Positions 1 to 17,739 of a DNA stretch of 17,739 nt are shown one piece after another; position 1 is the first letter of the stretch, and the number at the start of each line of letters is the position of its first letter. The notes beneath the pieces are model-generated. The model was not told the origin of the DNA. It ran no database searches and was given only the letters and a program-made list of their open reading frames with translations. A program made the translations under genes and the position numbers. The DNA lies in contig CAIRAS010000053.1 of the NCBI GenBank assembly GCA_903876615.1, forward strand, positions 1-17,739, in the 5' to 3' direction. Source of the stretch: an uncultured Holophagaceae bacterium (GTDB lineage: Bacteria; Acidobacteriota; Holophagae; Holophagales; Holophagaceae).

Positions 1-81
1 GCCGAACCACTTCTTGAGAAAGGCGGCGGCGGTATGGCCGGCCACGCCGGCGCCAAGGATGACCACGCGGGGTCGAGACAT
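1..81 (-). CDS. FAD/NAD(P)-dependent oxidoreductase, N-terminal fragment
   Basis: This leftward gene starts with ATG at 81-79 and runs off the left edge, so only 27 codons are visible. The peptide begins MSRPRVVILGAGVAGHTAA. This is the first beta strand and glycine-rich turn (GAGVAG, the GxGxxG motif) of a Rossmann fold that binds the ADP part of FAD. Such starts are typical of the pyridine-nucleotide-disulphide oxidoreductase superfamily, which includes sulfide:quinone and NADH oxidoreductases. It diverges from a YgaP-like membrane protein gene, and DUF2892 genes are often found beside sulfide:quinone oxidoreductases and rhodaneses. A sulfide-oxidation role is therefore a reasonable guess, but the substrate cannot be decided from 27 residues. 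Confidence 0.75.
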   Translation of the reverse strand, partial: MSRPRVVILGAGVAGHTAAAFLKKWFG

Positions 82-121
82 GAAGCCTCCGGGGGTGAAT
101 GTAGGTTGATTGGCTGGTGGA

Positions 122-151
122 TTGTATGCCTATTTAGTTAAGGATTATAAT
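122..151 (+). promoter_or_regulatory. Candidate promoter for the DUF2892 gene in a divergent intergenic region
   Basis: TATAAT lies at 146-151. TTGTAT at 122-127 is a fair -35 match, with an 18-nt spacer. The surrounding 130-165 stretch is strikingly AT-rich in an otherwise GC-rich region. A TATAAT also reads on the minus strand at 49-44 counted within 144-149, which could serve the divergent oxidoreductase gene, though its -35 is poor. This is motif matching only; sigma-factor preferences of this organism are unknown. Confidence 0.35.
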
Positions 152-1410: not shown

Positions 1411-1427
1411 ATGTGCTCATTGCCGGG

Positions 1428-1468
1428 TAGGGCTAACGGGATTTGAACCCGTGTTACCGCCGTGAAAG
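1428..1468 (-). other. tRNA-Glu 3' fragment = attachment (att) site of an integrative element
   Basis: Read on the minus strand, this is the 3' half of a tRNA-Glu(UUC). It contains the full anticodon loop CTTTCAC (1468-1462), the 3' side of the anticodon stem GGCGG, a short variable loop TAAC and a perfect T arm (ACGGG, TTCAAAT, CCCGT; 1452-1436). The 3' acceptor strand TAGCCCT with discriminator A ends at 1428, and CCA is not fully encoded (CCC follows). The D arm, the 5' acceptor strand and the 5' side of the anticodon stem are missing: upstream of the loop the sequence changes to AT-rich DNA. A crossover at the anticodon loop with a duplicated tRNA 3' end is the classic mark left by tRNA-targeting tyrosine recombinases. 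The integrase gene lies 138 bp away. The intact tRNA should be at the other end of the element, outside this window. Confidence 0.8.
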
Positions 1469-1606
1469 ATTGTTAAATACTGTTCAAACGTTCAGTTCCG
1501 GACGATTCAAAAATAAGATATTGCGTGAGTTACAAAAATAGTGTCCCATGGTGATCGGAGGCATTTGGGGACGCGAAATACGGATAAATTACGGATGGAG
1601 GACCTA

Positions 1607-2953
1607 ATGGTCAGGAATAAAGAGGTCAACAAGTTCGAGAACCGCAGCAAACGGCTGAAGCTGACCGCCCAGAAGGACCCCCACTGGACGGCGATCGGGA
1701 TCGGCCAGTCGATCGGCTACTACCGGCCGAAGAGCGGAGCCTCCGGGACCTGGAGCGCCAGGTTCATGGACATGAATACGAAGAAGTACCTGAGGCAGGC
1801 CCTCGGCACGGCCGATGACTTCCTGGAGGCCAACGAGGACACGGTGCTTTCCTTCGACCAGGCTCAGGACAAGGCCCGCGACTGGTTCAAGGAGATGAAG
1901 TCCGCGGTCGCGGGAGAACCGCACCGGCTGGGCCCACTCACCGTGGAGCAGGCCTGGATCGCCTACGCCGAGGACGCTGAGCGCCGCGGCAAGAAGAGCA
2001 TCGCCTCCACCAAACTGAATGTCACTGCCCACATCCTTCCCGCCTTCGGTGCCTGCAAGGTCGCCGACCTCACGCAGTGGAAGATCGAGAAATGGCACGC
2101 GGCGCTGGCCAAGGCTCCGGCCCGCGTTCGCACCAGGAAAGGCGAGCAACCCGCCTCCAGGCCGGCTCCGGTCACTGATGACCAGAAGCGCGCCCGCAGG
2201 GCCACCGCCAACCGCATCCTGGCCGCCCTGAAGGCCATCCTGAACTTCGTGAAGCATCGCGGCATGACCCGGGCCAACGCGGAAGCCTGGCGCGAAGTGA
2301 AACCCTTTGAAGGCACCACCGCCTCCCGGCAGCGGTTCCTGACACCCGAGGAGGCCCAGCGGCTGGTGAACGTCTGCCCGCCGGACTTCCGGCGCCTCGT
2401 CCAGGGCGGACTGTTCACGGGAGCGCGCTTCGGCGAGCTGTCGCGCCTGGTGAACTCAGACTTCAACGCGCCGAACGGAAAGATCTACATCGCCCCCTCC
2501 AAGAACAACCCGCACCCGCGCTATGTGGTGCTGACGGAGGAAGGGCAGATCTACTTCAAGGCCCTCACCGCGGGACGGCTCCCCGACGAACCCATGTTCC
2601 TGCGTGAGTCCAACGAAACCCGGAACTGGACAAGCCCCAAGTTGAACCGTCCCTGGCGCAAGTCAGAGCCGGCTCGGTGCATGAAGGAGGCCTGCCAGGC
2701 CGCCAAGCTCGCGACCCTCACGTTCCACGAGCTGCGCCATACCCACGCTTCCGGCCTGGTGAACAACGGGGTGCCTCTTGCGTTTGTGGCTGCGCAGCTC
2801 GGGCACTCGGATACTCGGATGGTGGAGAAGCACTACGGCCACCTGGCGCCTTCTGCCATGGCTGACGCGATCCGGGCGCTGGCCCCCAAGCTGGGCATCC
2901 ACGACGGGACACCCGTGGAGACGCTGGCCATCAAGCAGGGCAATGGAAAGTGA
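1607..2953 (+). CDS. Tyrosine recombinase / phage-type integrase
   Basis: The 448-residue protein starts at ATG 1607, which has GGAGG five to six bases upstream. The frame is open from GTG 1541, but that start has no such site. Residues 1-105 form an arm-binding-like N terminus, about 109-235 the helical core-binding domain (TVEQAWIAYAEDAERRG onward), and about 245-430 the catalytic domain. All active-site residues are present: Arg274 (TGARFGEL), Lys299 (APSKNNPHPR), His374-x-x-Arg377 (HELRHTH), His400 (LGHSD) and the nucleophile Tyr410 (KHYGHL). It therefore looks functional and would integrate or excise DNA through a covalent 3'-phosphotyrosine. Its position 138 bp from a tRNA-Glu 3' fragment points to that tRNA as its target. 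No excisionase is recognised next to it. Confidence 0.93.
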   Translation: MVRNKEVNKFENRSKRLKLTAQKDPHWTAIGIGQSIGYYRPKSGASGTWSARFMDMNTKKYLRQALGTADDFLEANEDTVLSFDQAQDKARDWFKEMKSAVAGEPHRLGPLTVEQAWIAYAEDAERRGKKSIASTKLNVTAHILPAFGACKVADLTQWKIEKWHAALAKAPARVRTRKGEQPASRPAPVTDDQKRARRATANRILAALKAILNFVKHRGMTRANAEAWREVKPFEGTTASRQRFLTPEEAQRLVNVCPPDFRRLVQGGLFTGARFGELSRLVNSDFNAPNGKIYIAPSKNNPHPRYVVLTEEGQIYFKALTAGRLPDEPMFLRESNETRNWTSPKLNRPWRKSEPARCMKEACQAAKLATLTFHELRHTHASGLVNNGVPLAFVAAQLGHSDTRMVEKHYGHLAPSAMADAIRALAPKLGIHDGTPVETLAIKQGNGK

Positions 2954-3066
2954 TGCTCTGGCTTTGCTCGCCTTGACCGAAGGTCATAGCAACCTCCGCC
3001 ATAACCCAGAATACCTGCACCCCGTGCCGTGCCCTCGGCCTTCGGCTGGAGAACGTTACGCATTCC

Positions 3067-3452: not shown

Positions 3453-6400
3453 ATGAGCCGCTTCCGCTCGGCAAGCCTTTCTGTCCTGACGGGCTTAGTG
3501 TTGCTTTGCGGGTGTGGCGGCGGCGGTGGTGGGGGGGCGAGTACGACACAAACTCCGCCAGCAGTGCAGGGGCCATCGGCGCTGGTCTATGGCACCAATC
3601 CCGCGATCTACACCAAGGGCGTGGCCATCGCGGCCAACAACCCGTCTAGCTCGGGCGGAGCCGTGGTGTCCTACAGCGTGAACCCGAGCCTGCCAGCCGG
3701 GCTAAGCCTCAACGCAAGTAGTGGCGTCATCACGGGGACCTCCACTGAGGTGATGGCCACGTCCAGCTATACGGTCACAGCCACGAATTCAGGCGGCAGC
3801 ACACCTGCCAGCCTGTCGATCACAGTGAATGATGCCGCTCCCAACGGCCTGAGCTACGGGACCAATCCGGCGGTCTATACCAAGGGCGCAGCCATCGCGG
3901 CCAACAACCCGACCAGCTCGGGCGGAGCCGTGGTGTCCTACGGCGTGAGTCCGAGTCTGCCGACCGGGCTGAGCCTGAACCCCACCAGCGGCGTCATCAC
4001 AGGAATACCGACAGCGGCGGTGACGGCCACGGCCAGCTATACGGTCACAGCCACGAATTCAGGCGGCAGCACGCCTGCCAGCCTGTCAATCACCGTGAAT
4101 GATGCTGCTCCCAGCGGCCTGACCTACGGGAGCAATCCAGCGGTCTATACCAAGGCCGTGGCCATCGGCGCCAACATTCCCAGCAGCAGCGGCGGAGCCG
4201 TAGTGTTCTACAGCGTGACCCCCGACCTGCCAGCGGGGCTCGTCCTGGATGCCGCGACCGGTCGCATTACTGGCAGGCCTACCGCTGCCGCGGCCCAGGG
4301 GAGCTATGTCATACGGGCCGCAAATAGCGGGGGCTACGCCACCGTGACCTTGATCCTGACAGTGGGGGATCCCTCAGGTACGTTCAAGATCCGCACAGGC
4401 ATGGTCAGCAGCAGTGCCACCCTCCGAGGCCTCAAGGAGCCTTCGGTCCTGATTCAGCCGGATGTCCTTCAGTTCAATGTTGGGATCCCCGCTACCCAGG
4501 GGGGGACGCTGATGGCCAGTACATCCTCTGGGACCACGGTCCAGCAGTTCTACCTCTCCACGCTGGCTCCAGATGGGAAAACCATCTGGGGCTACGGCGG
4601 ACCATCGGAATCCTTCCTGCCCACGGATGCTTCGGTCGTGAACGCCCACGGCGGTTTCACGGGAGGGTCCATCGACTTGGGCGCCGCGGGGATGACGGCG
4701 CCGGGGCCGGGTGTGTTCATGGCGAGGTTCGGTCTTGGCGTGACGACCGAGATGTCAGTCAAAGCCCAGCTGCAGACGCAGATGCTCACCCAGGTGGACG
4801 AAATCGTCCTGCGCCTGGCGAACCCGGAGTATCCACTCAAGGATGCGGCGGCAGGCACTGCCAATGTGGTGACCGCCCCCCATTTCCATTACTCGAACGG
4901 TGCCACCACCACCCTGTTCGCACCAGAGACCTCCCTGCCCAACGGGCAGCGGCTCTTCGCCGAGAACCTGACGGCCAATGGCACTGCGCATGCTCTGGTG
5001 GACATGCAGTACCTGTTCTTCGTTCCAGCTTCCAAGATCGGTGCTGGCCAGAGCTGCTTCGTGTTCGGTGGAACCAGCATTGTTGGCACCACCACCTACG
5101 CAAACCTGGGTGTCTTCGATCCCACCGGCTTGTCGGTGGCCGACTGGATCAAGAAGTCTCCAGGGCTTGCGAAGGCCCTTGATCAGTTCGCCGGGAGCGA
5201 CCGCACCACCCAGCGCTGGCTGGGGCTGGCCGCGTATTTCAATGCCTACATCACCAAGTTCATGGGCTACGGCTCGTCCATCTACTTCAGCCCGGTGACG
5301 CATACCCTGGGCATCACGAACTACCCGTCCCCCTTCGAGATCATCGCGCTTGACGATGCCAATGGGCCCATGTCCCTGGCAGGCTTCGCCACGCTGAACC
5401 TGAGCTACAACCCGGACCCCCTGGGCACCCGGTACACCTTGAGCGGCACGACACTTGATGTGAGTGGCACGCCGCCCATCAAGTTCTACACATCCGTTTC
5501 GGATCCGAGCAGCGGTACGGGGACGGTGGCACCAGCCATCCAGGCCCAGCCCGCCGCCCAGTCCGTGCTGGCGGGTCTCACGGCCTACTACTTCGTGTTG
5601 GCCACGGGGACGCCCAGTCCAACCTATCAGTGGCAGCGATCCGATGATGGCGGAAGCACCTGGGCCAGCGTGAGCGTCGGGATAGGCGGCTCCACCTCCA
5701 ACTTCAGCACCCTCGCGACCACCGCTGTGGACAGTGGCGCCCGCTTCCGCGTGGTGGTCCGGAACACAGCTGGAACGGTGATCAGCTCTTCTGCTCTGCT
5801 GACGGTGACCACACCGGTTGCCTTAGGTGTGGTTCTGCCCGCCAGTCAGCTCCTTCAGGTCACGACCGATGGAACCCTGACCGCCAAGGCCATGGGTGGT
5901 GTGCCTCCCTATGTCTACTCCTGGAGCAAGAACGGGTCAGCCCTCCCGGCAGTCACCGTGACTCAGTGCAGCCTGCCTTCCCTGCGACTCGCTGACCAGG
6001 GGGTGTACCAGGTGCAGGTGACGGATGCTGTGGGTGTCTCTGCCCGAGCTACCTCCAAGCTCTTCGTGGAGACCACTGCGAACCTGCCGGCCTCCTTCAA
6101 TCCTGAGGGCCTGGCTGTGTCTGGAGACGATCTGTACCTTGCCTCCCCTTCCAAGAACATCGTGCTCTGGCTTTCGGCCGCTTCGGGCACGGGGCAGCAG
6201 GTCGCCATCCAGGGCGCGCCCACCAGCATCACCGTGGACGCTGAGGGGAATCCCTGGGTGACCCTCAAGGCCCTTGGGAAGATCGCCAAGATCGACAAGC
6301 AGACGGTAACCGTGACCCAGGTCAGTGTCGGCGGCCAGCCCCATGGCATTGCCCGGGGCCTCTCCGGGGCGATCTGGTTCACCCTGCAGGGCACCAACCA

Positions 6401-9400
6401 GATCGGCAAGATCGGAGTGGATGGGGGTGCGCCCACCCTGTACACACTGAGCGCGGGCGCCGCGCCCACGGGGATCACCGTGGCTTCCGATGGCACCGTG
6501 TGGTTCACCGAAGGGGGCAAGGGCAAGGTTGGTCGTCTGGCTCCTGGCGCCAGCCAGGTCGAGGAGTGGGTCTGCCCGCACACCAACGCCATGCCAGATC
6601 AGATCGTGGCCACCAGCGATGGCCGGGTGTACTACACCGACGGAAAGGCCTCGGCGGTCGTGATGTTCACGGTGGCGGCCCAGCTTCCTGGTTTCAGTTC
6701 TGGGGTGCCTCTGACCCAAGCTTTCGCAGTCGCGGTGGACTCTCACGGCGGTCCGGCAGGCATCGCCTTGGATGGTAACAATCAGGTCTGGTTGACCCAG
6801 AAGCAGGTGGGGAAGGTGACGCGGCTGTCCAGCCTCTCCCAGGCGCTCGCCCTTAGGGCCGCTGGGGGCTCCGAGCGCAATGCCAGCCTCCCCGGCAGTG
6901 ACGCCGTAACAGGCAGTGGCAGCTCTGCCACCTATGAGTTCACCTCCAGCCAGAGCCAGCCCACGGGCATCGCGGTCGCAGCCAACGGGTCCGTGTATGC
7001 CACCTTGGCTGGCACGAATCAAGTGGCCCAGGTTCCCACCGCCGCTGCGGCGCAAAGCATCCAGGTGGCCATCCAGGCAGCGGAGCCCAAGCGGGTTCTG
7101 AAGAGCGAGACCCTCAGCTTCGAGGTGGTCGTGACCGGCTCCACCAATCCTGCCGTCACATGGGAGCTGGTCGAAGGCTCCACGGCGGGAACCATCACTG
7201 CGGCAGGGAGCTATACAGCCCCCGCCAAGGCAGGGACCTACCACGTGGTGGCCCGGAGTGTGGAAGATCCCTCGAAGTTTGGTCGGCTGGAGGTGGTGGT
7301 GTATCCCTGGAACTCCTGGCCCAAGGGGCAGTTGAACATCCTGGCCGGGAATGTGGCGGGAGTCGGAAATTATAACGGACAGGGCAGCGCGGCCCGATTC
7401 AACCGCCCCCAGGGCGTCGCAGTGGACCCCTCTGGGAACGTCTTTGTAGCCGACAGCAACAACCTGATCGTCCGGAAGATCACACCCACAGGGCTGGTCA
7501 GCACCTTTGCGGGATCTCCCGGCCAATCTGGCTTCGCCGACGGTCTCGGGGCCGCGGCCCGCTTCAGCGCCCTCGGAAACGTGGCCGCGGATGCCCTCGG
7601 CAACCTCTACGTGTCGGATCGGAGCAGCCTCCGGAAGATCACGGCCGACGGTATCGTGAGCACCCTGGCGGGCAATCCCACGGAATTCGGCAGCACCGAT
7701 GGTCTGGGCAGCGCCGCCCGCTTCCGCGCCCTCGCCTATGTGGCCGCGGACACCCAGGGCAACCTCTACGCGACGGACGCCGTGCAGCACACCGTCCGTA
7801 AGATCACTGCCGCCGGGCTGGTCACCACCCTGGCGGGGCAGGCCGAACAAGCCGGGTCCAGCGATGGTCCCGGGGCCTCGGCCCGTTTCGATTCACCGCA
7901 GGGCATCGCGGTGGATTCCGCCGGGAATGTCTATGTGGCAGACCAGAACAACCGGACCATCCGGAAGATCGATGCTTCGGGAGTGGTCAGCACCCTGGCG
8001 GGTGCCGTGGGCCAGCGGGACCTGGTGGACGGTCAGGGCGCCAGCGCAAGGTTCAGCGGCCCGGGCGGACTGGCCTTGAATGCCACCTCCGGTCACCTCT
8101 ACGTCTCCGACGGAGGCGCGATCCGCAAGATCACAGCGGCGGGAATGGTGAGCACCCTGGCGGGAAGCGGCTATGGTGCGAGCGATGGCCAGGGGGCCGC
8201 GGCCTCGTTCCGACTGCCCGAAGGTGTGGCCGTGGACAGCGCCGGCAACATATACGTAGCGGACAACCTCAACTACACCATCCGCAAGGTCACGCCTGCC
8301 GGGTTGGTGAGTACCTTGGCTGGCCTAGCGGGAGAGAACACTTCCTCCGATGGTCAAGGAAGTGCGGCCGGGTTATATGAGCCCATGGGCATCGCCGTGG
8401 ACGCCTCTGGAAACGCCTACGTCGCGGATACGGGCAATGCGCTCATCCGGAAGATTGCAACGGATGGAACCGTGAGTACCCTCGCTGGTTCGGCCATCAA
8501 TTCGCCCTTCAGCAAGCCCCAGGGCGTAGCCGTGGACGCGGCCGGCAATGTCTACGTGGCGGATACCGCCAACCACGCCATCCGGAAGGTGACTTCCGGC
8601 GGTCAGGTGAGCACCCTCGCGGGTCTGGTCGGCACAAGCGGATCCGCGGATGGTTCCGGCGGCACAGCGCGGTTCAATGGGCCCCAGAGCCTTTTGGTGG
8701 ACGCCGCCGGAAACGTCTATGTCGCCGACACGGGGAACTCGACCATCCGCCGGATCACTTCCTCCGGGGCGGTCAGCACGCTGGCGGGCACCGCCGGCCA
8801 GGTTGGATTCACCGATGGACCTGGCACGGCGGCCCTGTTTGGCAGCCCCAACGGCGTGGCCCTGGACGGCCAGGGCAACCTCTACATTTCGGACTACTGG
8901 ACTGGCGCCATCCGCAAGGTCGCATCCGATGGCACCGTCAGTACCGTGGCGGGCCTGCTGAGTCAGGGCAGTCCCTTGGATGGGAACGCCGGTACGGTGG
9001 GCTTCAACCATCCGATGGGACTTGCCGTGGATGCCGCAGGGAACCTCTACGTGGCGGACCGGGACAACAACGCCATCCGCCTGATCCTGGCCGACGGCTT
9101 CGTGTGCACCCTCCTCGGCGACGCGGCCGCGGGCATCAACCGCCCCGGGAGCATGCGCGACGGTGGGAGCCTGCCCCTGGGCGACACCTATGGTGCCCTG
9201 GCCAATCCCATTGGCGTCGCCGTAGGCCCGGACGGCTCGCTCTTCATCGCCACCGGGAACGGCGTCATGAAGGTGGGACCCACCAACGGACTTCTGCCCC
9301 CCACGGACCTCACCTACAGCGCCAACCCGGCTATCTACAACAAGGGAACAGCCATCGCCGCCAATCGGCCGACATACTCAGGTGGTGCTGTTTCTTCTTA

Positions 9401-12400
9401 CAGCGTGAGCCCAAGCCTACCGGTCGGGTTGAGCCTGGGCGCCAGCACCGGCGTCCTCAGCGGGACTCCGAGCGCGATCACGGCCTCAGGGACCTATACC
9501 GTGACCGCCACGAACAGCGGTGGGAGCACCACAGCCAGCGTGTCGATCACGGTCAAGGAGGCCGCGCCCTCTGGCCTGACCTATGGGACCAACCCGGCGG
9601 TCTATACCAAGGGAACGGCGATCGCCGCCAATACCCCTACTAGTTTGGGTGGGGCAGTGATGTCCTTTTCGGTTAGCCCAAGTCTGCCTGCGGGCCTGGT
9701 CCTAAATACCAGCACGGGCGTGATAACGGGAACTCCTGCCGCGGTCACAGCCCAGGGGACCTACAGCGTGACGGCCAGCAACAACGGCGGATTCACCAGC
9801 GCCAATCTGACGATCACGATCAATGATCTAGCTCCTGCCACGCCTCTGGTGTCTATCGATGCCTATGTGACCACCGGCAAGGTGGGACTGCTGGCCAGCA
9901 CCCAGGATCAAGGCCTTGGAATGAGTTATGTCTGGATCATGGCAGGAGGGACCATCACGGCCGGTCAAGGCACAACCAGCATTCACTACACCGCAGGGGC
10001 AGTCGGTTCCTTGACTGCCACAGTGAGTGTGGCCAACGCTGTTGGGGGTGCTTCAGGAAGCGCTGCATCCACTGTCGCTGCTTTGCCGAATGCCGAGTTG
10101 GCCCTGCCTACATCCGTCCACCCTGGGGACTCCTGGATGAAGGCAAGCCTGCCTATCCAGTCGGGCGTGACCTACATGTGGACCATCGTTGCTGGAGATG
10201 CCACTGCGACGATCACCTCGGGCCAGGGGACGGGTGTCATCGGCTTCGCCGCTGGCGCTAGCCTGGGCACCTTCCAGATCGTTGCCAACCTGCAGAACGA
10301 AGCTGGCGATCAGGCTGTCGCCACGCGTACGGTCACGGTCCAGGTGGGCACCTGGGTCATCAAGGACGGCGGACCTGGCATGGCAACCGCTGGCTCAACG
10401 GTGACCATGTTGCCGAGTGGTCGCCTGCTCATGGTGGGTGGGGGCATGTATTCTCCACCAACAAGCTACCAACCGGTCTCATCAGTTCAGCTCTTTGATC
10501 CTGCCATGGCGCGCTGGGTCCACCAGCCAAGCATGGGCACGGCACGGTTGGCCCACACAGCTACGCTACTGCCTAGCGGGCGCCTGCTGGTGGTGGGTGG
10601 AAGGAACACCTCCCTAGTTGCTGCTATTTCCAGCGCACAGCTATATGACCCCGCCACGGGAACCTGGAGTCCCACCAAGAGCCTGGGCATGGCCAGAGCG
10701 AGCCACACCGCCACCCTGCTCCCGAACGGCAAGGTATTGGTGGCGGGTGGGATTGGCTCTTCGCCTTTGGCTAGCGCAGAGCTCTATGATCCGGAGAGCG
10801 AAACCTGGAGCTCCGCCGGCAGCATGCTGGTGGGCCATCAATCCCATACTGCAACCCTCTTACCCAGTGGGAAGGTATTGGTCTCGGGCGGGATGCCCCT
10901 CACCGGTAGCACCCCTATTACAACTTCAGAGATTTACGACCCGGAGTCGAATACCTGGACTTCGACAGGAAGCATGAACACCAAGAGCTATGGACACACC
11001 GCCACCCTACTCTCCGATGGACAAGTCCTCCTTGTGGGTGGCTATGACGGAGCAATGAACCTAACAAGAGCAGAGCGCTACAACCCGGAAACGGGGATCT
11101 GGACTGCCACCGGGAGCTTAGCGTCGGCACGCAACAGCCACCGCACGGTCCTGCTCCCCAGCGGGAAGGTGCTTGTGACGGGCGGTAACTACCTGGCTAC
11201 TGCCGAGGTCTACGAGCCTTCCGATGGGACCTGGCGCGGCGCCGGGGCCATGGGGGTGGGGCGTAGTGGGCACACAGCCACCCTTCGTAAAGACGGAACA
11301 GTAATAGTAGTGGGAGGTGTCATTACCTCCTATGCATTACCCTTCGCCGCCCGAGCAGAGGTCTATTCGCCTGCCACAGGCGATTGGACCCCACTCGGCA
11401 GTCAGATCACTGCCGGCAGTTCTCACACCGTTACGCCGCTTCCGGATGGGCGCCTCCTTGCCGTAGGGGGCACCTACAACAATGTGCAGATGGCCGGTAC
11501 AGCGACCTATGCTACTGACACACGCACGTGGTCTGTATCCGGTGTCATGGGCACAGCTCGGTCCTCCCACACCGCCACCCTCCTTCAGAGTGGCTTGGTC
11601 CTGGTGGCGGCTGGCAACAACAACGCCATCGCACTGGCCAGTGCTGAATTGTACGATCCTGCCTCAGGGGCCTGGTCCACAACGGGCAGTCTGGTCAACG
11701 CAAGGATGTCTCATTCCGCCACCTTGCTTCCGAATGGGAAGGTCCTGGTGGTGGGCGGCCGATCACCCACAAATCTGCTGAGTGCGGAGCTGTACGATCC
11801 CACTTCGGGAACATGGACGGCCACCGGTAGCCTGGGAACGGCCCGGTCCTCACACAGCTCCACCTTGCTGCCAAGCGGCAAGGTTCTGGTGGCAGGGGGC
11901 AATGCCGCCGCTGCAATCGATGGTTCCGAGGTATACGATCCTGCCACGGGCGTCTGGACCACGATAGGGAGCATGGCTGCGGCCCGATACGGACACACCG
12001 CCACCCTGCTCGGCACCGGGAAGGTGTTGGCAAGTGGAGGCGGTGGCATCAATGGCTCCTTACTAACTTCAACCGAGCTCTTTGATCCTCAGGCAGGGAC
12101 ATGGACTGCCACGGGGAACATGACTACGCCAAGAATCGGCCACTCAACGGTTCTCCTGCAGAATGGTCAGGTCTTGGTTGCTGGTGGGAATATTTATATC
12201 TCAGGGACATATCTGCTAGGAACCACCGAAGTCTACGATCCGACGACGGGACTGTGGACCCCAAGGGGAAGCCTCAAGGCCCCGCGCTATGGGCATACGG
12301 CGACTTTGCTCCAGGATGGAACCGTCCTTGCGGCCTTTGGATCCGGTGGCGATGTCATCACTGAGATCTACATGCATGCCGAGGCTGGCACTGCTCCGAC

Positions 12401-15400
12401 GGGCCTGATCTATATATCGCCGCAGGCACTCTATATTAATATTGCCATCCTCTCGAACGGTCCGAGCCACGGCGGCGGTGTTGTCACGGCCTACACCATT
12501 GACCCTGCGCTGCCAGCAGGCCTGACCCTGAATGCAACGACGGGCGTGATCACCGGAACTCCAACGGAAATTTCGTCCACTAAGACCTACATCGTGACCG
12601 CCAGCAATGCTGCCGGCAGCACTACAGCGCAGCTGAGCATCACCGTGGATTTGCCCTCAGCACCTACAGGTCTGATCTACTATGCCAACCCGGCGGTCTA
12701 TGTCAGAGGCACCGGGATCACCATGAACTTCCCGGCCTACAGCGGTGGGGGGGCTACCTCCTTCAGCGTGAACCCGACCCTGCCGGCCGGGCTGGCCCTG
12801 AGTTCCAGCACGGGCGCCATCTCGGGTACCCCATCCGCCGTCGCACCCACAGCCACCTACGTAGTAACGGCATCCAACGGCGGTGGCAGCGCCACGGCGA
12901 ACCTCTCCATTACCGTTAACGACATGGTTCCTTCTGGATTGACTTACGGCATCCTCAGCGCCGTATACGGGAAGGGCATTGCCATTAATCCCAACACACC
13001 AACCTGTGGCGGGGGTGCTATCTCCCTCTATACCGTTAGCCCTGCACTCCCGTCGGGACTGACCCTTAACTCCACCACTGGGGTGATCTCAGGGACCCCC
13101 GCTGCTATCTCCGCTGCCACGACATACACAGTCACCGCCGCCAATGTCACCGGGTCCTCCACCAAGACCCTGAGCATCACCGTGGCCATCGGCGGGATGA
13201 CCCCCACAGGGAATCTGCACACAGCCCGAAGCCGCCACGAAGCGGCGATCCTGCCAGACGGCAAGGTGTTGATCCTCGGTGGCTACATCGGGAATGCCAC
13301 TGCAGAGCTCTACGATTCGGCCACCGGTCTCTTCACCGCCACGGGAAGCATGAATGTTCCCCGCAATCGACCCACGGCGACCTTGCTCCCCAATGGCAAG
13401 GTGCTGGTCACGGGTGGGCACGACGGAGCCCAGCAGTCGGTCACAGCGGAGCTGTACGACCCGGCCACGGGTACGTTCACCCTCACAGGAAGCATGAGTG
13501 TTGCGCGCCAGTGGCACACGGCCACCCTTCTGCCCGATGGAAGGGCCATGATTGCTGGGGGAGTGAGCGATAGCGCCTACCTGGCCTCTGTAGAGCTCTA
13601 TGACCTCGCCACGGGGCTGTTCAGTTACGGCGGGACCATGACAACCGCCCGGGCCGTCCATACCGCAACGCTGCTCCCAGCAGGAAAGGTTCTGCTGGTC
13701 GCTGGCACGAATGCGAATGGAGCCCATCTGAGCAGCGCTGAGCTGTTTGACCCCTCCACGGGGCAATTTGTAACAACGGGAAGCCTGGGACATGGTGCGG
13801 TCTATCACGCAGCGACAGGCCTTCCCGATGGGCGAGTTCTGGTAACGGGAGGGCAGAATGATACAACCGTCTTCGCAACGGGGTACGTCTATGAGCCCGG
13901 TTCAGGCGTATTCTCTACCACGCCAGGCATGGCAATTGAGCGCGTGGCCCATTCCTCGACCCTACTTCCAAATGGGCGTGTGCTGATTGCAGGCGGCGAG
14001 GACAACGTCGTGAACGACCTGACCCTGGCGGAAGTATTTGATCCTCAGACGGGCCTCTTCAGCCCCACAGGGGACATGAAGACCCCGCGGGAGATCCATA
14101 CAGCTAGCCTGCTTCTGAACGGGAAGGTGCTCCTTGCCGGTGGGTATAACTCGGCGGGAGCCGTAGGTGGGGCAGAGCTCTACGATTCCGGTGACACCTT
14201 GCCGGGCTATCCCGTGGTCTCGTATAGCCTAAGCCCTTACCTGATATACCAAGGTGTTGCGATCTCCGCCATTACGCCTGCAAGTACGGGTGCTTCTCGG
14301 TGGTCCATAACACCCGCACTGCCAACAGGGTTGGTCCAAAATTCAGGAACCGGGGTGATCTCCGGAACGCCTGATGCTACCCAATCAGCCACCGCATATT
14401 GGGTTACTGCAAGCAATGGCGTGAACAGCAGTACCTTCATAATTTGGATCAAGGTCAATGATGCAGCACCAAGCGGCCTGACTTATGGCACAAGCACAGC
14501 GGTCTACACCAAGGGCACCACGATCACCTCCAACAGCCCGACAAGTTCGGATGGCGCTGTCGTGAGCTACAGCGTAGTCCCCAGCCTCCCGGCTGGGCTC
14601 GTTCTAAACACCAGCACGGGCGTCATCTCGGGCACTCCAACCGCCATCACCAGCTCGGCCAGCTACACAGTCACAGCCACCATTACCGGCGGTAGCACCC
14701 AAGCCAGCCTGACGATTACGGTCAATGACGCAGCGCCGACGAGCCTGGTCTACACGACGTCATCTGCCACCTACACAATGAGCGTAGCCATCACCTCGAA
14801 CTCTCCCGGCAATGGGGGAGGTGCGGTGGTGTCCTACGGGGTATCCCCAAGCCTGCCCGCCGGCCTCTCCATGAGCACCAGCACAGGCGTCATCTCGGGC
14901 ACCCCAACTGCCATCACCAGCTCGGCCAGCTTCACAGTCACTGCCACCAACACCGGCGGCAGCACCCAGGCCAGCCTGACGATCATGGTCAATGGCGCCG
15001 CGCCGACGAGCCTGGTCTACACGACGTCATCTGCCACCTACACGAAGAACGTAGCTATCACCTCGAACTCTCCCGGCAATGGGGGAGGAACGGTGGTGTC
15101 CTACGGAGTCTCCCCAAGCCTGCCCGCCGGCCTCTCCATGAGCACCAGCACGGGCGTCATCTCGGGGACTCCGACGGCCGTGACGGCCTCAGCCAGCTTC
15201 ACCGTTACTGCTACCAATACCGGCGGCAGCACCCAGGCCACCATGACGATTACGGTCAACGACGCTGCGCCGACGAGCCTGGTTTACACAACCGCGCCTG
15301 CCGCCTACACAAAGAACGTAGCTATCACCTCGAACTCTCCCGGCAATGGGGGAGGAACGGTGGTGTCCTACGGGGTGACGTCCTCCCCACTTCTATACCA

Positions 15401-15410
15401 AGGATGGTGA
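3453..15410 (+). CDS. Giant multi-propeller/putative-Ig surface lipoprotein, 3' end interrupted by a group II intron
   Basis: The start is ATG 3453 (GAGGT at 3444-3448), although the frame is open from GTG 3414. A lipoprotein signal peptide ends in the lipobox LCGC and is followed by a poly-Gly stretch, so the protein is secreted and lipid-anchored. Modules in order (approximate residues): three putative-Ig (He_PIG) units 41-306; an unrecognised domain 307-690; two Ig-like domains 691-875; a seven-unit Vgb-like propeller 876-1200; a Big-like domain 1203-1285; 12 NHL units 1290-1947; two He_PIG 1949-2128; two PKD-like domains 2129-2300; 14 kelch units 2300-2980; three He_PIG 2981-3246; seven kelch units 3247-3583; four and a part He_PIG 3584-3974. 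The native sequence stops at 15374. The last 11 codons and the stop at 15408-15410 are intron sequence. Propellers and Ig stalks suggest adhesion or carbohydrate/protein binding, but no enzyme active site was found. Confidence 0.9.
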   Translation: MSRFRSASLSVLTGLVLLCGCGGGGGGGASTTQTPPAVQGPSALVYGTNPAIYTKGVAIAANNPSSSGGAVVSYSVNPSLPAGLSLNASSGVITGTSTEVMATSSYTVTATNSGGSTPASLSITVNDAAPNGLSYGTNPAVYTKGAAIAANNPTSSGGAVVSYGVSPSLPTGLSLNPTSGVITGIPTAAVTATASYTVTATNSGGSTPASLSITVNDAAPSGLTYGSNPAVYTKAVAIGANIPSSSGGAVVFYSVTPDLPAGLVLDAATGRITGRPTAAAAQGSYVIRAANSGGYATVTLILTVGDPSGTFKIRTGMVSSSATLRGLKEPSVLIQPDVLQFNVGIPATQGGTLMASTSSGTTVQQFYLSTLAPDGKTIWGYGGPSESFLPTDASVVNAHGGFTGGSIDLGAAGMTAPGPGVFMARFGLGVTTEMSVKAQLQTQMLTQVDEIVLRLANPEYPLKDAAAGTANVVTAPHFHYSNGATTTLFAPETSLPNGQRLFAENLTANGTAHALVDMQYLFFVPASKIGAGQSCFVFGGTSIVGTTTYANLGVFDPTGLSVADWIKKSPGLAKALDQFAGSDRTTQRWLGLAAYFNAYITKFMGYGSSIYFSPVTHTLGITNYPSPFEIIALDDANGPMSLAGFATLNLSYNPDPLGTRYTLSGTTLDVSGTPPIKFYTSVSDPSSGTGTVAPAIQAQPAAQSVLAGLTAYYFVLATGTPSPTYQWQRSDDGGSTWASVSVGIGGSTSNFSTLATTAVDSGARFRVVVRNTAGTVISSSALLTVTTPVALGVVLPASQLLQVTTDGTLTAKAMGGVPPYVYSWSKNGSALPAVTVTQCSLPSLRLADQGVYQVQVTDAVGVSARATSKLFVETTANLPASFNPEGLAVSGDDLYLASPSKNIVLWLSAASGTGQQVAIQGAPTSITVDAEGNPWVTLKALGKIAKIDKQTVTVTQVSVGGQPHGIARGLSGAIWFTLQGTNQIGKIGVDGGAPTLYTLSAGAAPTGITVASDGTVWFTEGGKGKVGRLAPGASQVEEWVCPHTNAMPDQIVATSDGRVYYTDGKASAVVMFTVAAQLPGFSSGVPLTQAFAVAVDSHGGPAGIALDGNNQVWLTQKQVGKVTRLSSLSQALALRAAGGSERNASLPGSDAVTGSGSSATYEFTSSQSQPTGIAVAANGSVYATLAGTNQVAQVPTAAAAQSIQVAIQAAEPKRVLKSETLSFEVVVTGSTNPAVTWELVEGSTAGTITAAGSYTAPAKAGTYHVVARSVEDPSKFGRLEVVVYPWNSWPKGQLNILAGNVAGVGNYNGQGSAARFNRPQGVAVDPSGNVFVADSNNLIVRKITPTGLVSTFAGSPGQSGFADGLGAAARFSALGNVAADALGNLYVSDRSSLRKITADGIVSTLAGNPTEFGSTDGLGSAARFRALAYVAADTQGNLYATDAVQHTVRKITAAGLVTTLAGQAEQAGSSDGPGASARFDSPQGIAVDSAGNVYVADQNNRTIRKIDASGVVSTLAGAVGQRDLVDGQGASARFSGPGGLALNATSGHLYVSDGGAIRKITAAGMVSTLAGSGYGASDGQGAAASFRLPEGVAVDSAGNIYVADNLNYTIRKVTPAGLVSTLAGLAGENTSSDGQGSAAGLYEPMGIAVDASGNAYVADTGNALIRKIATDGTVSTLAGSAINSPFSKPQGVAVDAAGNVYVADTANHAIRKVTSGGQVSTLAGLVGTSGSADGSGGTARFNGPQSLLVDAAGNVYVADTGNSTIRRITSSGAVSTLAGTAGQVGFTDGPGTAALFGSPNGVALDGQGNLYISDYWTGAIRKVASDGTVSTVAGLLSQGSPLDGNAGTVGFNHPMGLAVDAAGNLYVADRDNNAIRLILADGFVCTLLGDAAAGINRPGSMRDGGSLPLGDTYGALANPIGVAVGPDGSLFIATGNGVMKVGPTNGLLPPTDLTYSANPAIYNKGTAIAANRPTYSGGAVSSYSVSPSLPVGLSLGASTGVLSGTPSAITASGTYTVTATNSGGSTTASVSITVKEAAPSGLTYGTNPAVYTKGTAIAANTPTSLGGAVMSFSVSPSLPAGLVLNTSTGVITGTPAAVTAQGTYSVTASNNGGFTSANLTITINDLAPATPLVSIDAYVTTGKVGLLASTQDQGLGMSYVWIMAGGTITAGQGTTSIHYTAGAVGSLTATVSVANAVGGASGSAASTVAALPNAELALPTSVHPGDSWMKASLPIQSGVTYMWTIVAGDATATITSGQGTGVIGFAAGASLGTFQIVANLQNEAGDQAVATRTVTVQVGTWVIKDGGPGMATAGSTVTMLPSGRLLMVGGGMYSPPTSYQPVSSVQLFDPAMARWVHQPSMGTARLAHTATLLPSGRLLVVGGRNTSLVAAISSAQLYDPATGTWSPTKSLGMARASHTATLLPNGKVLVAGGIGSSPLASAELYDPESETWSSAGSMLVGHQSHTATLLPSGKVLVSGGMPLTGSTPITTSEIYDPESNTWTSTGSMNTKSYGHTATLLSDGQVLLVGGYDGAMNLTRAERYNPETGIWTATGSLASARNSHRTVLLPSGKVLVTGGNYLATAEVYEPSDGTWRGAGAMGVGRSGHTATLRKDGTVIVVGGVITSYALPFAARAEVYSPATGDWTPLGSQITAGSSHTVTPLPDGRLLAVGGTYNNVQMAGTATYATDTRTWSVSGVMGTARSSHTATLLQSGLVLVAAGNNNAIALASAELYDPASGAWSTTGSLVNARMSHSATLLPNGKVLVVGGRSPTNLLSAELYDPTSGTWTATGSLGTARSSHSSTLLPSGKVLVAGGNAAAAIDGSEVYDPATGVWTTIGSMAAARYGHTATLLGTGKVLASGGGGINGSLLTSTELFDPQAGTWTATGNMTTPRIGHSTVLLQNGQVLVAGGNIYISGTYLLGTTEVYDPTTGLWTPRGSLKAPRYGHTATLLQDGTVLAAFGSGGDVITEIYMHAEAGTAPTGLIYISPQALYINIAILSNGPSHGGGVVTAYTIDPALPAGLTLNATTGVITGTPTEISSTKTYIVTASNAAGSTTAQLSITVDLPSAPTGLIYYANPAVYVRGTGITMNFPAYSGGGATSFSVNPTLPAGLALSSSTGAISGTPSAVAPTATYVVTASNGGGSATANLSITVNDMVPSGLTYGILSAVYGKGIAINPNTPTCGGGAISLYTVSPALPSGLTLNSTTGVISGTPAAISAATTYTVTAANVTGSSTKTLSITVAIGGMTPTGNLHTARSRHEAAILPDGKVLILGGYIGNATAELYDSATGLFTATGSMNVPRNRPTATLLPNGKVLVTGGHDGAQQSVTAELYDPATGTFTLTGSMSVARQWHTATLLPDGRAMIAGGVSDSAYLASVELYDLATGLFSYGGTMTTARAVHTATLLPAGKVLLVAGTNANGAHLSSAELFDPSTGQFVTTGSLGHGAVYHAATGLPDGRVLVTGGQNDTTVFATGYVYEPGSGVFSTTPGMAIERVAHSSTLLPNGRVLIAGGEDNVVNDLTLAEVFDPQTGLFSPTGDMKTPREIHTASLLLNGKVLLAGGYNSAGAVGGAELYDSGDTLPGYPVVSYSLSPYLIYQGVAISAITPASTGASRWSITPALPTGLVQNSGTGVISGTPDATQSATAYWVTASNGVNSSTFIIWIKVNDAAPSGLTYGTSTAVYTKGTTITSNSPTSSDGAVVSYSVVPSLPAGLVLNTSTGVISGTPTAITSSASYTVTATITGGSTQASLTITVNDAAPTSLVYTTSSATYTMSVAITSNSPGNGGGAVVSYGVSPSLPAGLSMSTSTGVISGTPTAITSSASFTVTATNTGGSTQASLTIMVNGAAPTSLVYTTSSATYTKNVAITSNSPGNGGGTVVSYGVSPSLPAGLSMSTSTGVISGTPTAVTASASFTVTATNTGGSTQATMTITVNDAAPTSLVYTTAPAAYTKNVAITSNSPGNGGGTVVSYGVTSSPLLYQGW
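4371..5520 (+). other. Unrecognised domain of about 380 residues within the giant lipoprotein
   Basis: Between the third putative-Ig unit and the next Ig-like domain lies a non-repetitive segment beginning GTFKIRTGMVSSSATL and ending near LSGTTLDVSGTPP. It contains a polar, aromatic-rich stretch (TAPHFHYSNGATTTLF) and a helical part (ADWIKKSPGLAKALDQF). It is the only large part of the protein without an obvious repeat pattern, so it may carry the specific activity. I see no known catalytic motif and do not assign a family. Confidence 0.5.
6080..7050 (+). repeat. Vgb-like seven-unit beta-propeller region
   Basis: Seven units share the pattern P-x-GI-V-DG-VWFT-G-IGKI, for example around 6460 (APTGITVASDGTVWFTEG) and 6350 (HGIARGLSGAIWFTLQG). 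This is the pattern of the virginiamycin B lyase (streptogramin lyase) propeller family. Seven units match one seven-bladed propeller. The lyase catalytic residues could not be checked by eye, so a binding role is more likely than a lyase role. Confidence 0.7.
7320..9290 (+). repeat. NHL-repeat region, 12 units
   Basis: Twelve units of roughly 55 residues follow the pattern VSTLAG...DGxGxxARFxxPxGVAVDxxGNVYVADxxNxxIRKIT. Twelve units would make two six-bladed propellers, the usual NHL blade number. The last unit (FVCTLLGDAAAG) is diverged and lacks the IRKI end. Such propellers usually bind proteins or sugars on the cell surface. Confidence 0.85.
10350..12390 (+). repeat. Kelch region 1, 14 units
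   Basis: Fourteen units carry the pattern GSM-x-AR-x-HTATLLPSGKVLVAGG-x-AELYDPATGTW, counted by the HTATLL..G-VLV-GG core. Fourteen is exactly two seven-bladed propellers. The first unit (STVTMLPSGRLLMVGG) and the last (HTATLLQDGTVLAAFG) are the most diverged, as expected at propeller ends. The pattern resembles the galactose-oxidase-like kelch type, but no copper-site residues are evident. Confidence 0.85.
13190..14200 (+). repeat. Kelch region 2, 7 units
   Basis: Seven further kelch units run from HEAAILPDGKVLILGG to HTASLLLNGKVLLAGG, enough for one seven-bladed propeller. The region is separated from the first kelch region by three putative-Ig units. Units differ clearly from one another at DNA level, so this is an old duplication rather than a recent one. 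Confidence 0.85.
14741..15374 (+). repeat. 267-bp near-identical tandem repeats encoding putative-Ig units
   Basis: The segment GAGCCTGGTCTACACGACGT begins at 14741 and again at 15008. A close variant begins at 15275, giving an exact 267-bp (89-codon) period. CGAACTCTCCCGGCAATGGG also recurs in all three copies. These are much more alike than other repeats in the gene, which indicates recent duplication. The third copy is cut by the group II intron after 15374, 100 bp into the unit. Confidence 0.85.
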
Positions 15411-16004
15411 GAGTCCTGGGTTAAGGGTTGTCTCGCTGGGATTCGCGGAGGGAGCCGTAGGCGACCGGGTGCGATCGGCACGATCCACAGATAGGAGGTG
15501 AAAATCCAGACCTGAGGCCCTAACGGAGGGAACTCAACACCGACGAGACAAGGGCGTGAACCTGGAGCACCAGGCGTAGTCAGACCCATCGGAAGGGAGG
15601 AAGCGTTGAAAAGCAAGTGGATCAGAAAAGATTCAAAAGCCGGACAGCGTCAACCCAAGGTCCGGGAGGGACGACCCGTGAGGGCATGTCTAGTGGAAGT
15701 CATAGGTGTGCAGCCGTCTCGAACGAAAGTGAAGCGCCGTAAGGCTTTCTCCGAAAGGGGTGAGCTGGCCCGCAGCAGCAATGCCCTATTTCCGTTGGCC
15801 CTCGGAGAGAGTATTGGCGACGAGATGGGTGCAAAGTCTGTGGATCTTACCCGAGGAGCTCTGCCGGGTTCCGCGAAAGCGGTAGGCCGTACAACGCAAG
15901 AAGGAAAGCCAACGGCCCGTCAGAGCAACGAGAACCGCGCAGTACCGAACGACCGTCGAAAGGCGGTTTCGCCCAAGGAGGTCAAGCACCCTGGGATAGG
16001 GAAG
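15375..16004 (+). ncRNA. Group II intron ribozyme, domains I-III (5' part)
   Basis: About 630 bases lie between the intron start and the region encoding the first recognisable maturase residues, the normal size for domains I-III. The stretch is rich in short hairpins and GAAA-type loops, for example GTCGAAAGGC near 15955-15965 and CCGCGAAAGCGG near 15870-15880, as expected for a structured RNA. CCGTAGG (15455-15461) is complementary to CCTACGG (15367-15373) just upstream of the intron and could be an exon-binding pairing. I did not derive a full secondary structure. Confidence 0.5.
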
Positions 16005-17477
16005 GTGGTTCCGGTCAACGAACAAGCGATTCAGCTGGCACTGCCCTTCGAGACAGTCGAAGAGTCCGCGCAAGCGGAACCCATGGCCGAGATGGATCAC
16101 CAGCCAAGGTGGTCTGAGTCGTGCGTGGAACCGAAGTCGGAGGACAAGTACGAGTATGCAGAGCTGGTGACGATGGAATCGGCCACGAGTTTTCTCGCGA
16201 TGGCCTTCCAGAAAGTAGCGTCAAACAAGGGAGCCGCCGGTCCAGATGGACGGAGCATCGAGGAGGTGCGCAAGCATCTCCCCAAACTCCTGCCGAAGCT
16301 GACCAAGGAACTGCTCAGAGGAACCTACCAGCCGGGCAACATCCGGCGGGTCTGGATACCGAAGGGCGGGGGAGGTCAGCGCGGATTAGGCATCCCCAAC
16401 GTGGTTGATCGAGTGGTCGCGGAAGCCATACGGATGTTGCTTGAACCGCTGTACGAGCCAAGTTTCCACGAGCAAAGCCACGGATTCAGACCCGGACGAA
16501 GTTGCCACACGGCGATCGCTCAGGCCAAGGGCATCATGGAAGAAGGATACGAGTGGGTGGTGGATATCGATCTAGAGAAGTTCTTTGATCGAGTCAATCA
16601 CCAGCGCCTGATGGCCCGGCTTGCCGAGCGGGTGAAGGACAGGCGTCTACTCGTTCTGATCGGCCGGATGCTCAAGGTCGGGGTGGTCATGCCGGATGGC
16701 GTGGTGGTGAGCAACGAGGAAGGCGTACCGCAGGGTGGGCCTCTCTCCCCGCTACTCAGCAATATCGTTCTCGACGAGCTTGATGCTGAGCTGGCGAGAC
16801 GAGGCCACCGCTTCGTTCGTTATGCGGACGACTGCAACATCTATGTCCGCAGTGAGCGTGCAGGTATACGGACCATGACGAGCATCAAGGCGTTCATCGA
16901 ACGGCGGTTGCGCCTGAAAGTGAACGAGAAGAAGAGCGCCGTGGCCCATCCAGATGAAAGGCACTTCCTCGGTTTCCGACTTCGGCGCGACCCGCTGGAG
17001 GGAGAGATCGAAGTGCTGCTGTCGAAACGCTCGAAAGAGCGTCTCGCAGTTCGGATTCAGGAACTGACGCCGAGAGGCTGGGGGAAATCACTCCGAGAGT
17101 GTATCCGCCAGGTGAACGGCTACGTGGTTGGCTGGATCGGGTTCTTTGGGATCTGTACGACCGGAGAAGAAATGACGCTGCATGCACTGGACGCCCACAT
17201 CCGGAGACGGGTGAGGGCGATTCAGCTCAAGCACTGGAAGACCAAACGGACAGCCGTAATCCGCCTGATTCGTCTGGGAGTGAATACCAAGACCGCGTGG
17301 GGCAGCGTCTATGGTGGCCGAAAGTCCATCTGGGCACTGAGTCACTGCGCCGCCGTGGACCGGGGACTCCGCAACGCGTATTTCGCCGAACGGGGGCTCG
17401 TGTCCGTGCTGGACCGGTGGAGGCTCAAGCAACCAGTCATCGTTGCCCCAGGACCAGAACCAGTGGCCCCGGGATAG
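15606..17477 (+). CDS. ltrA: Group II intron reverse transcriptase/maturase
   Basis: Multifunctional intron protein that aids RNA splicing and copies the intron into DNA during retrohoming. Coordinates give the full open frame (623 codons, TTG start with GGGAGG seven bases upstream). The first 130-160 codons overlap the ribozyme, so translation may really start near GTG 16005 or ATG 16083, giving about 490 or 464 residues. Numbered from TTG, the RT domain begins near residue 190 (MESATSFLAMAFQKVASNKG). Motifs include GIPNVVDRVVAEA, HGFRPGRSCHTA, VVDIDLEKFFDRVNH, GVPQGGPLSPLLSNI and the catalytic FVRYADDCNIY (YADD 406-409). The maturase (GIIM) domain follows, at about 480-560 (VNGYVVGWIGFF, RRRVRAIQLKHWK). 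There is no HNH endonuclease domain; the protein ends shortly after NAYFAERGLVSV. That resembles endonuclease-less, class C-like intron proteins. All key residues appear intact. Confidence 0.92.
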   Translation: MKSKWIRKDSKAGQRQPKVREGRPVRACLVEVIGVQPSRTKVKRRKAFSERGELARSSNALFPLALGESIGDEMGAKSVDLTRGALPGSAKAVGRTTQEGKPTARQSNENRAVPNDRRKAVSPKEVKHPGIGKVVPVNEQAIQLALPFETVEESAQAEPMAEMDHQPRWSESCVEPKSEDKYEYAELVTMESATSFLAMAFQKVASNKGAAGPDGRSIEEVRKHLPKLLPKLTKELLRGTYQPGNIRRVWIPKGGGGQRGLGIPNVVDRVVAEAIRMLLEPLYEPSFHEQSHGFRPGRSCHTAIAQAKGIMEEGYEWVVDIDLEKFFDRVNHQRLMARLAERVKDRRLLVLIGRMLKVGVVMPDGVVVSNEEGVPQGGPLSPLLSNIVLDELDAELARRGHRFVRYADDCNIYVRSERAGIRTMTSIKAFIERRLRLKVNEKKSAVAHPDERHFLGFRLRRDPLEGEIEVLLSKRSKERLAVRIQELTPRGWGKSLRECIRQVNGYVVGWIGFFGICTTGEEMTLHALDAHIRRRVRAIQLKHWKTKRTAVIRLIRLGVNTKTAWGSVYGGRKSIWALSHCAAVDRGLRNAYFAERGLVSVLDRWRLKQPVIVAPGPEPVAPG

Positions 17478-17527
17478 GAGAGGTCGTAAACCGGCCGGTG
17501 GCGGGGGTCATAACCCGTCATCCCGAA

Positions 17528-17596
17528 GAGCCGTGTGTGAACAGCACTTGCACGGTTCTGTGAGAGGTGCCCCCAGGTAACTGGGGGTGCCTACTC
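17528..17596 (+). ncRNA. Group II intron domains V and VI
   Basis: Domain V starts GAGCCGTG (17528-17535) and ends CACGGTTC (17551-17558), pairing as the lower stem that holds the catalytic AGC-type triad. It is 31 nt long instead of the usual 34. Domain VI follows: GAG-A (17562-17565), then GGTGCCCCCAG pairing with CTGGGGGTGCC across a GTAA loop, then T, a bulged A at 17593, and CTC pairing back to GAG. The bulged A is the expected branch-point nucleophile. Together these fix the intron's strand and 3' end region. Confidence 0.8.
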
Positions 17597-17598
17597 GA

Positions 17599-17739
17599 GA
17601 GAAGGCCATGCGCCTGGACCCCAGCGCCTCCCAGGCCTACCGGGCGCTGGCCTCCATCCAGCTGCGCCTGGGCGACCTGGAGGGTGCCAGCCAGATGGCG
17701 CTGCAGGCCGTGCGCCTGGATCCCGCCGACCACAAGGCC
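17599..17739 (+). CDS. TPR-repeat protein, internal fragment
   Basis: After the intron the frame starting GAG at 17599 reads EKAMRLDPSASQAYRALASI and continues ASIQLRLGDLEGASQMAL, then QAVRLDPADHKA to the window edge. This is one full tetratricopeptide repeat flanked by parts of its neighbours: the AxxLDP helix end, A-Y-ALA, and LG-LE-A. The first residues (EKAM) are the tail of a preceding repeat, so the visible ATG at 17608 is probably not the start. The gene was evidently cut at its 5' side by the intron. It shows no relation to the giant lipoprotein upstream of the intron. Role unknown; TPRs mediate protein-protein contacts. Confidence 0.7.

Follow-up and report, generated by a model that had tools for sequence, protein, structure and literature searches.

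The 17,739-base stretch of DNA analysed here (the window) runs from the end of an IS3-family insertion sequence (IS) through a complete group II intron into the middle of a Ser/Thr kinase-TPR gene, and we consider that this link is probably (with a probability of roughly 0.7) an assembly artefact made through two copies of the intron, both junctions being genuine insertions. The nearest relatives of the window were Holophagaceae metagenome-assembled genomes (MAGs), and its two ends matched the same ones. The left end (1-418) was 96% identical to G043, 91% to G044 and 89% to G045 over its whole length, and 84% to G052 over 126-416; the corresponding values for the right end (17599-17739) were 97%, 95%, 96% and 94%. 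The ends therefore fit one organism of the G043/G044/G045/G052 group, and strains or species of this group could be mixed in the window. The features on which the argument rests are the following.

3453..15375, plus strand: giant lipoprotein gene with He_PIG, NHL and Kelch repeats (ORF list, repeats, Pfam and repeat comparison)
15376..15468: right end (TGACGTCC...) of an IS3-family IS, 93 bp, whose transposase would read on the minus strand (intron-free copies in relatives)
15469..17599, plus strand: group II intron, 2131 bp, GTGCG...CTACTCGAG (Rfam, 5'- and 3'-end alignments, empty target in contig C17 of G001)
15606..17477, plus strand: open frame with the intron-encoded reverse transcriptase/maturase, IEP (ORF list, Pfam, TIGR04416, solved structures)
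15672..15844, plus strand: ribozyme core, Rfam group-II-D1D4-3 (RF02001, E 1.8e-12, 70 bits, gathering score 32)
17526..17599, plus strand: domains V and VI, Rfam Intron_gpII (RF00029, E 3.7e-4, 36.8 bits)
17600..17739, plus strand: Ser/Thr kinase-TPR gene, entered at codon 587 of 862 in the numbering of G043 (Pfam, relatives)
17599..17739, plus strand: last 141 bases of the window, all aligning to the intronless TPR gene of relatives and fitting a k=141 branch node

A preliminary description of this DNA had placed a group II intron at 15375..17739. The intron is real and its 3' end lies at 17599, but its start is 94 bp further downstream, at the GTGCG of 15469, because the other copies align only from this base and diverge before it, which ruled out a start at 15375. 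The ends were checked in contig C17 of G001, where the 3' flank AGTCGGG stands beside an uninterrupted second target, GCCCGTGG/AGTCGGG (GTGG/AGTCGGG; the slash marks the junction). They also agreed with the other empty targets, namely the intron-free IS copies and the G043 site corresponding to the copy on contig C131 of G045, indicating precise insertion; the window's own two flanks do not make up one insertion site. All the parts of the intron, from GTGCG to domain VI, are together in one piece. The Intron_gpII match was below the gathering score of 40, yet it was full length and ended at 17599.

The IEP showed the Pfam domains RVT_1 (1.8e-39) and GIIM (6.4e-13) and scored 375.8 bits against TIGR04416, for which the cut-off is 300, and no endonuclease domain was detected in it by Pfam. 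Homology to known IEPs started at around residue 195 (near 16190), and the part of the frame preceding this point is probably ribozyme read through. The best solved structures for residues 195-605 were 6ar1 (GsI-IIC, E 2.8e-114) and 7uim (a Eubacterium-type maturase, E 1.6e-91), and judging from these matches the intron would be IIC-like. Its likeness to group IIC introns would lie in the structure matches of the IEP, the absence of an endonuclease domain by Pfam and the short conserved end of the 5' exon; hairpin-like sequence precedes the site at several places, and the IIC hairpin rule was not clearly borne out. A scan of genome contigs with the IEP gave 34 loci, those of Holophagaceae being the closest. 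Three loci with IEP relatives, at 43-53% identity, were found in viral contigs.

The 5' flank had been described as a 267-bp Ig repeat. There is indeed a He_PIG array of 267-bp units in the lipoprotein gene, the last unit of which has 91 bp (15284-15374) and is identical to the preceding unit at 82 of 91 positions; directly before the intron, however, lies the IS end (15376-15468). These 93 bp between repeat and intron ruled out the Ig repeat as the 5' exon, and by the sequence comparison the IS is the 5' exon, and what interrupts the Ig repeat is the IS rather than the intron. The lipoprotein frame continues into the IS and stops at 15408-15410. The resulting open reading frame (3453-15410) encodes 3985 lipoprotein-like residues, with He_PIG, NHL, Kelch and Ig-type repeats, and is truncated by the IS.

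The same IS end was found without the intron at seven loci in six related genomes (91-93 bp, 77-100% identical), and at all seven it was followed by AGTGAATCCCA, which gives the empty site CCGG/AGTGAATCC. Uninterrupted copies in relatives thus put the intron site inside the IS at CCGG/AGTGAATCCC, with CCGG/AG as the exon junction. A whole IS was present in G048 (L148, 2175-3413); it measures 1239 bp, has terminal inverted repeats, with TGACGTCCTCCC and GGGAGGACGTCA as its ends (TG...CA), and carries two genes with HTH_Tnp_1 (OrfA) and rve (OrfB) domains. On this complete copy the element, of which the window has just 93 bp, is a member of the IS3 family. The intron lies antisense to the transposase gene, about 25 codons short of the gene end, so that splicing cannot restore the transposase message, and the host IS was probably damaged by the intron. 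The preliminary description had also argued that a simple insertion would leave the same repeat on both sides. This is not to be expected for an intron nested in an IS, since the 3' partner of the 5' flank should be the rest of the IS and not more Ig repeat. The nesting thus has three layers, with the intron inside the IS and the IS inside a gene of an island.

At the other end of the lipoprotein region, the 3' half of a tRNA adjoins a tyrosine integrase (1426-2953), in the manner of the attachment site of an integrated island. No whole tRNA was found at the island edge by ARAGORN, and the half beside the integrase presumably derives from a tRNA-Glu, to judge from how it reads. Contig C43 of G045 has this tRNA half and this integrase as well (97% over 1426-3066), but with different cargo, and there an IS with the intron lies about 17 kb beyond them.

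The 3' flank had been described as lying in frame inside a TPR gene, and Pfam bore this out for the reading frame after 17599. In G043 the gene encodes a TPR-repeat Ser/Thr kinase of 862 amino acids, and its codon 587 is the one at the junction. The sequence from 17599 to 17739 matched 40 of the 77 genomes of the family at E 2.4e-14 or better and 49 of the 77 at E 1e-3, the weaker matches probably being other TPR genes. Among the matches listed, the gene ran uninterrupted through the junction in 30 of 30 relatives. Before the intron one would expect the 5' part of the TPR gene; the IS is present instead. The left-end locus and the TPR gene were on different contigs in G043, G044, G045 and G052, which rules out the TPR gene as the natural downstream neighbour in these four nearest relatives; in none of them did it belong to the same unit further downstream. 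The earlier statement that the two flanks come from different genes is upheld, and the loci are unrelated. The contigs carrying the two loci in G052 measure 300,638 and 157,321 bases, with about 147 kb of contig to each side of the left-end locus.

The intron was multicopy in G001 and G045, and, as the preliminary description had anticipated, further copies were met next to other flanks in close relatives. In G045 an IS-intron 5' junction was found at least once (C43), and the 3' flanks on C131 and C202 differ from each other. The junction in C43 repeats that of the window, includes 138 intron bases and has a different outer flank; contig C8 has the same IS end plus a single base fitting the intron, and contig C22 opens precisely with the remaining IS half. 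The copy on C131 (L124, 142-900) lies antisense in the terminal part of what seems, from its sequence, to be a gene for an OmpR-type response regulator.

Eleven contigs of relatives contained 100 nt or more of the intron at 75% identity or more, and 10 of them ended inside it (C83, C107 and C17 of G001; C120 and C266 of G003; C104 of G004; C297 of G043; C43, C131 and C202 of G045), the exception being an internal 5'-truncated copy in G054 (C224). Outside this count were the single base in C8 of G045, two internal matches of lower identity (C101 of G002, 71%, and C133 of G043, 66%), an internal match of 44 nt (C167 of G061) and three shorter weak matches. The family-wide scan for the intron scored up to 3 candidates per genome, and further scans up to 40 in each of ten genomes, so that copy numbers are to be read as at least those given.

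The positions of the contig ends bear on the assembly. From 17599, which is a G in the intron and the intronless gene alike, to the last base of the window there are exactly 141 bases. Contigs C131 and C202 of G045 have exactly 141 nt in common up to the intron end, contig C17 of G001 starts with 141 shared nt up to the AG of the exon, and contig C43 of G045 ends with three exon bases, CGG, plus 138 intron bases, this CGG being common to the IS and C131 sites; moreover, k141 forms part of a G001 contig name. From these spacings and the sequence, it is very probable that the window stops at a branch node of a k=141 graph at which intron-TPR and intronless TPR sequence converge, and this would imply that intron-TPR reads and an uninterrupted TPR allele both existed in the same data. 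The k=141 overlap logic gives no account of contigs C8 and C22 of G045, which end within one base of the intron boundaries, and contig C297 of G043 ends at 138 intron bases like C43, although the shared-CGG account fits C43 and not C297. At the left end, window positions 1-141 had a matching stretch in contigs C60 and C55 of G044 (L128 and L129, near 1393-1533), 85% alike and diverging after it, which is only suggestive of a second assembly branch (a 141-mer node).

Comparison of the insertion sites supported a true insertion of the intron into the TPR gene. At the junction, G043 and G045 have GCCGCGGCGG in their intronless gene, followed by A-A-A-A-G-G, where the window has AGAAGG. The 3' flank of C131 in G045 belongs to an independent intron site, which is empty in G043 as GCCGTGGCGG/GCGTGG, and 9 of the 10 bases before the junction agree between this site and the TPR site; CGG/AG is shared with the IS site and GG/AG with the G001 site. 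Four sites (IS, TPR, C131 and C107 of G001) have CGG or TGG before the junction, and those not ending in GG were GCGC (C297 of G043) and GAGCA (C120 of G003). The IIC hairpin rule, tried as proof of the TPR site, was not borne out, stems being not clearly above background at most sites: no perfect stem of 4 bp or more was found near the junction at the three TPR sites or the IS site, and stems of 6 bp or more were present at two of five distinct non-TPR sites (C107 of G001 and C120 of G003), whereas 13% of 16,974 background positions reach 6 bp and 58% have 4-bp stems. Each of the two junctions, IS-intron and intron-TPR, looks genuine in these alignments.

The explanation that we favour starts from what was observed, that is, the ends of the intron, the identity of the IS, the several copies and the intact TPR gene in relatives, and the similarity of the sites; beyond this, we infer that both copies existed in the window's organism and that the assembly passed from one to the other. 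One copy of a multicopy, IIC-like intron would sit in the IS3-family element that interrupts the lipoprotein gene of the island, and another in the kinase-TPR gene elsewhere on the chromosome, possibly in a mixture of strains, some of which have the TPR gene uninterrupted. With both copies in a de Bruijn graph, the 2131 shared bases could be entered by two paths and left by two. If the TPR-to-intron and intron-to-IS links were lost through low depth, the former beside the uninterrupted TPR allele and the latter beside the repeated IS, the path from IS through intron to TPR gene would remain as one contig, which would enter the intron from the IS copy and leave it by the TPR copy. According to passages of PMC7299287, MEGAHIT removes nodes whose coverage departs from that of their neighbours, and the same passages describe chimeric contigs of metagenome assemblers in which disparate places are likewise joined via shared repeat k-mers with such local-coverage pruning, whereas the assembler of the window is deduced from the spacings.

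Against an artefact it can be said that a plain k=141 graph containing the two copies in full would be expected to break at the intron, as it does in G045, and yet the contig runs through, so that the competing links (5' part of the TPR gene to intron, intron to rest of the IS) must be missing or pruned; also, the second copy and the intronless TPR allele are known from relatives and not from the window's own genome. The preliminary description had named two options, recombination of intron copies and misassembly across a multicopy intron, and these proved to be the right ones. If the join were true, which we regard as unlikely, the IS-nested and TPR copies would have recombined to give a large, roughly origin-symmetric inversion of the chromosome, bounded by IS-intron-TPR on one side and by TPR-intron-IS on the opposite side. 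Near-symmetric inversions about the origin are a kind that is tolerated. The contig is unbroken, as a true join would have it, and the outer loci are about equally close to G043 (96% and 97%). In the closed relatives G015, G022 and G037, all three with dnaA close to coordinate 0, the TPR gene was on the plus strand at 0.71, 0.81 and 0.87 Mb, and the tRNA 3' half had matches on the opposite side and in the opposite orientation, at 0.62-0.63, 0.75 and 0.98-1.01 Mb, respectively; with loci so placed on either side of the replication origin, the product of recombination would be an inversion. However, the tRNA match extends over just 43 bp, which does not prove that one and the same tRNA gene is concerned in the closed genomes. 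Placing the island locus through its flanking genes gave no match in 8 of 12 genomes, all the closed ones included, and a second placement search gave mostly scattered matches to repeated families, the 43-bp half being the only placeable part. The reciprocal TPR-intron-IS product was not seen in the relatives, and recombination demands one event more than the assembly explanation. There are precedents of a kind in passages of two papers: PMC7923331 puts forward recombination between IIC intron copies at two sites as a route to integron cassettes, and PMC5894124 considers deletions caused by recombination between introns in the case of RmInt1.

It is very improbable that the IS end and the intron spread as one unit and came to lie before a different 3' flank each time. 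In favour of such a unit, the window and contigs C43 and C8 of G045 (the latter with one intron base) all have the IS end before the intron, with three different outer flanks, and the known 3' flanks in G045 (C131 and C202) are not this IS. However, contig C22 of G045 starts with exactly the remaining IS half, as expected of an ordinary IS split by an intron, other 5' flanks precede the intron in C297 of G043, C83 and C107 of G001 and C120 of G003, and G043 shows the empty C131 site with a 5' exon of its own, GCCGTGGCGG; the varying outer flanks are explained by intron-carrying IS copies moving as ordinary IS. A functional trans-split gene, in which a lipoprotein or IS transcript and a TPR transcript would be trans-spliced from intron halves, is scarcely credible even though group II intron Ll.LtrB can make chimeric mRNAs in trans (passages of PMC6248898), because the intron is whole, in one piece and with its own reverse transcriptase, cis splicing would fuse the IS end to the kinase-TPR frame past the stop at 15408-15410 with no sensible product, and the TPR gene is whole in all 30 of the relatives among the matches listed; the trans-split locus that had been suggested thus found no support here. 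In the intergenic trans-splicing of Ll.LtrB, as those passages describe it, one group II intron likewise unites parts of different genes, but at the RNA level and from a single genomic copy, whereas the present case concerns assembled DNA.

With both junctions taken as genuine insertions, the nearest parallel, by its IS home plus a site in an ordinary gene and with no kinship claimed, is RmInt1 of Sinorhizobium meliloti, which passages of PMC5894124 describe as a multicopy group II intron residing mostly in the insertion sequence ISRm2011-2, with extra insertions in the ordinary gene oxi1 at a similar binding site. Like RmInt1, the present intron is found in an IS and in an ordinary gene, here the kinase-TPR gene, at a site resembling another of its sites; the IS of RmInt1 is, by the same passages, of the IS630 family, that of the window is of the IS3 family, and the present IEP is closest to IIC proteins. 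A copy of an intron in an IS427-like element is reported in a passage of PMC3522654.

Mobile elements nested in this way, an intron in an IS in a gene of an island, are precisely the places where short-read assemblies cross over, and in this case comparison of the flanks with relatives tells the genuine junctions apart from the unproven link. The locus stays within known kinds, unless the rearrangement turns out to be real. In that event, a conserved signalling gene of a member of the Holophagaceae would be split at the intron, with each half dependent on a hybrid locus, and a large chromosome inversion in the Acidobacteriota would have a group II intron as its crossover point.
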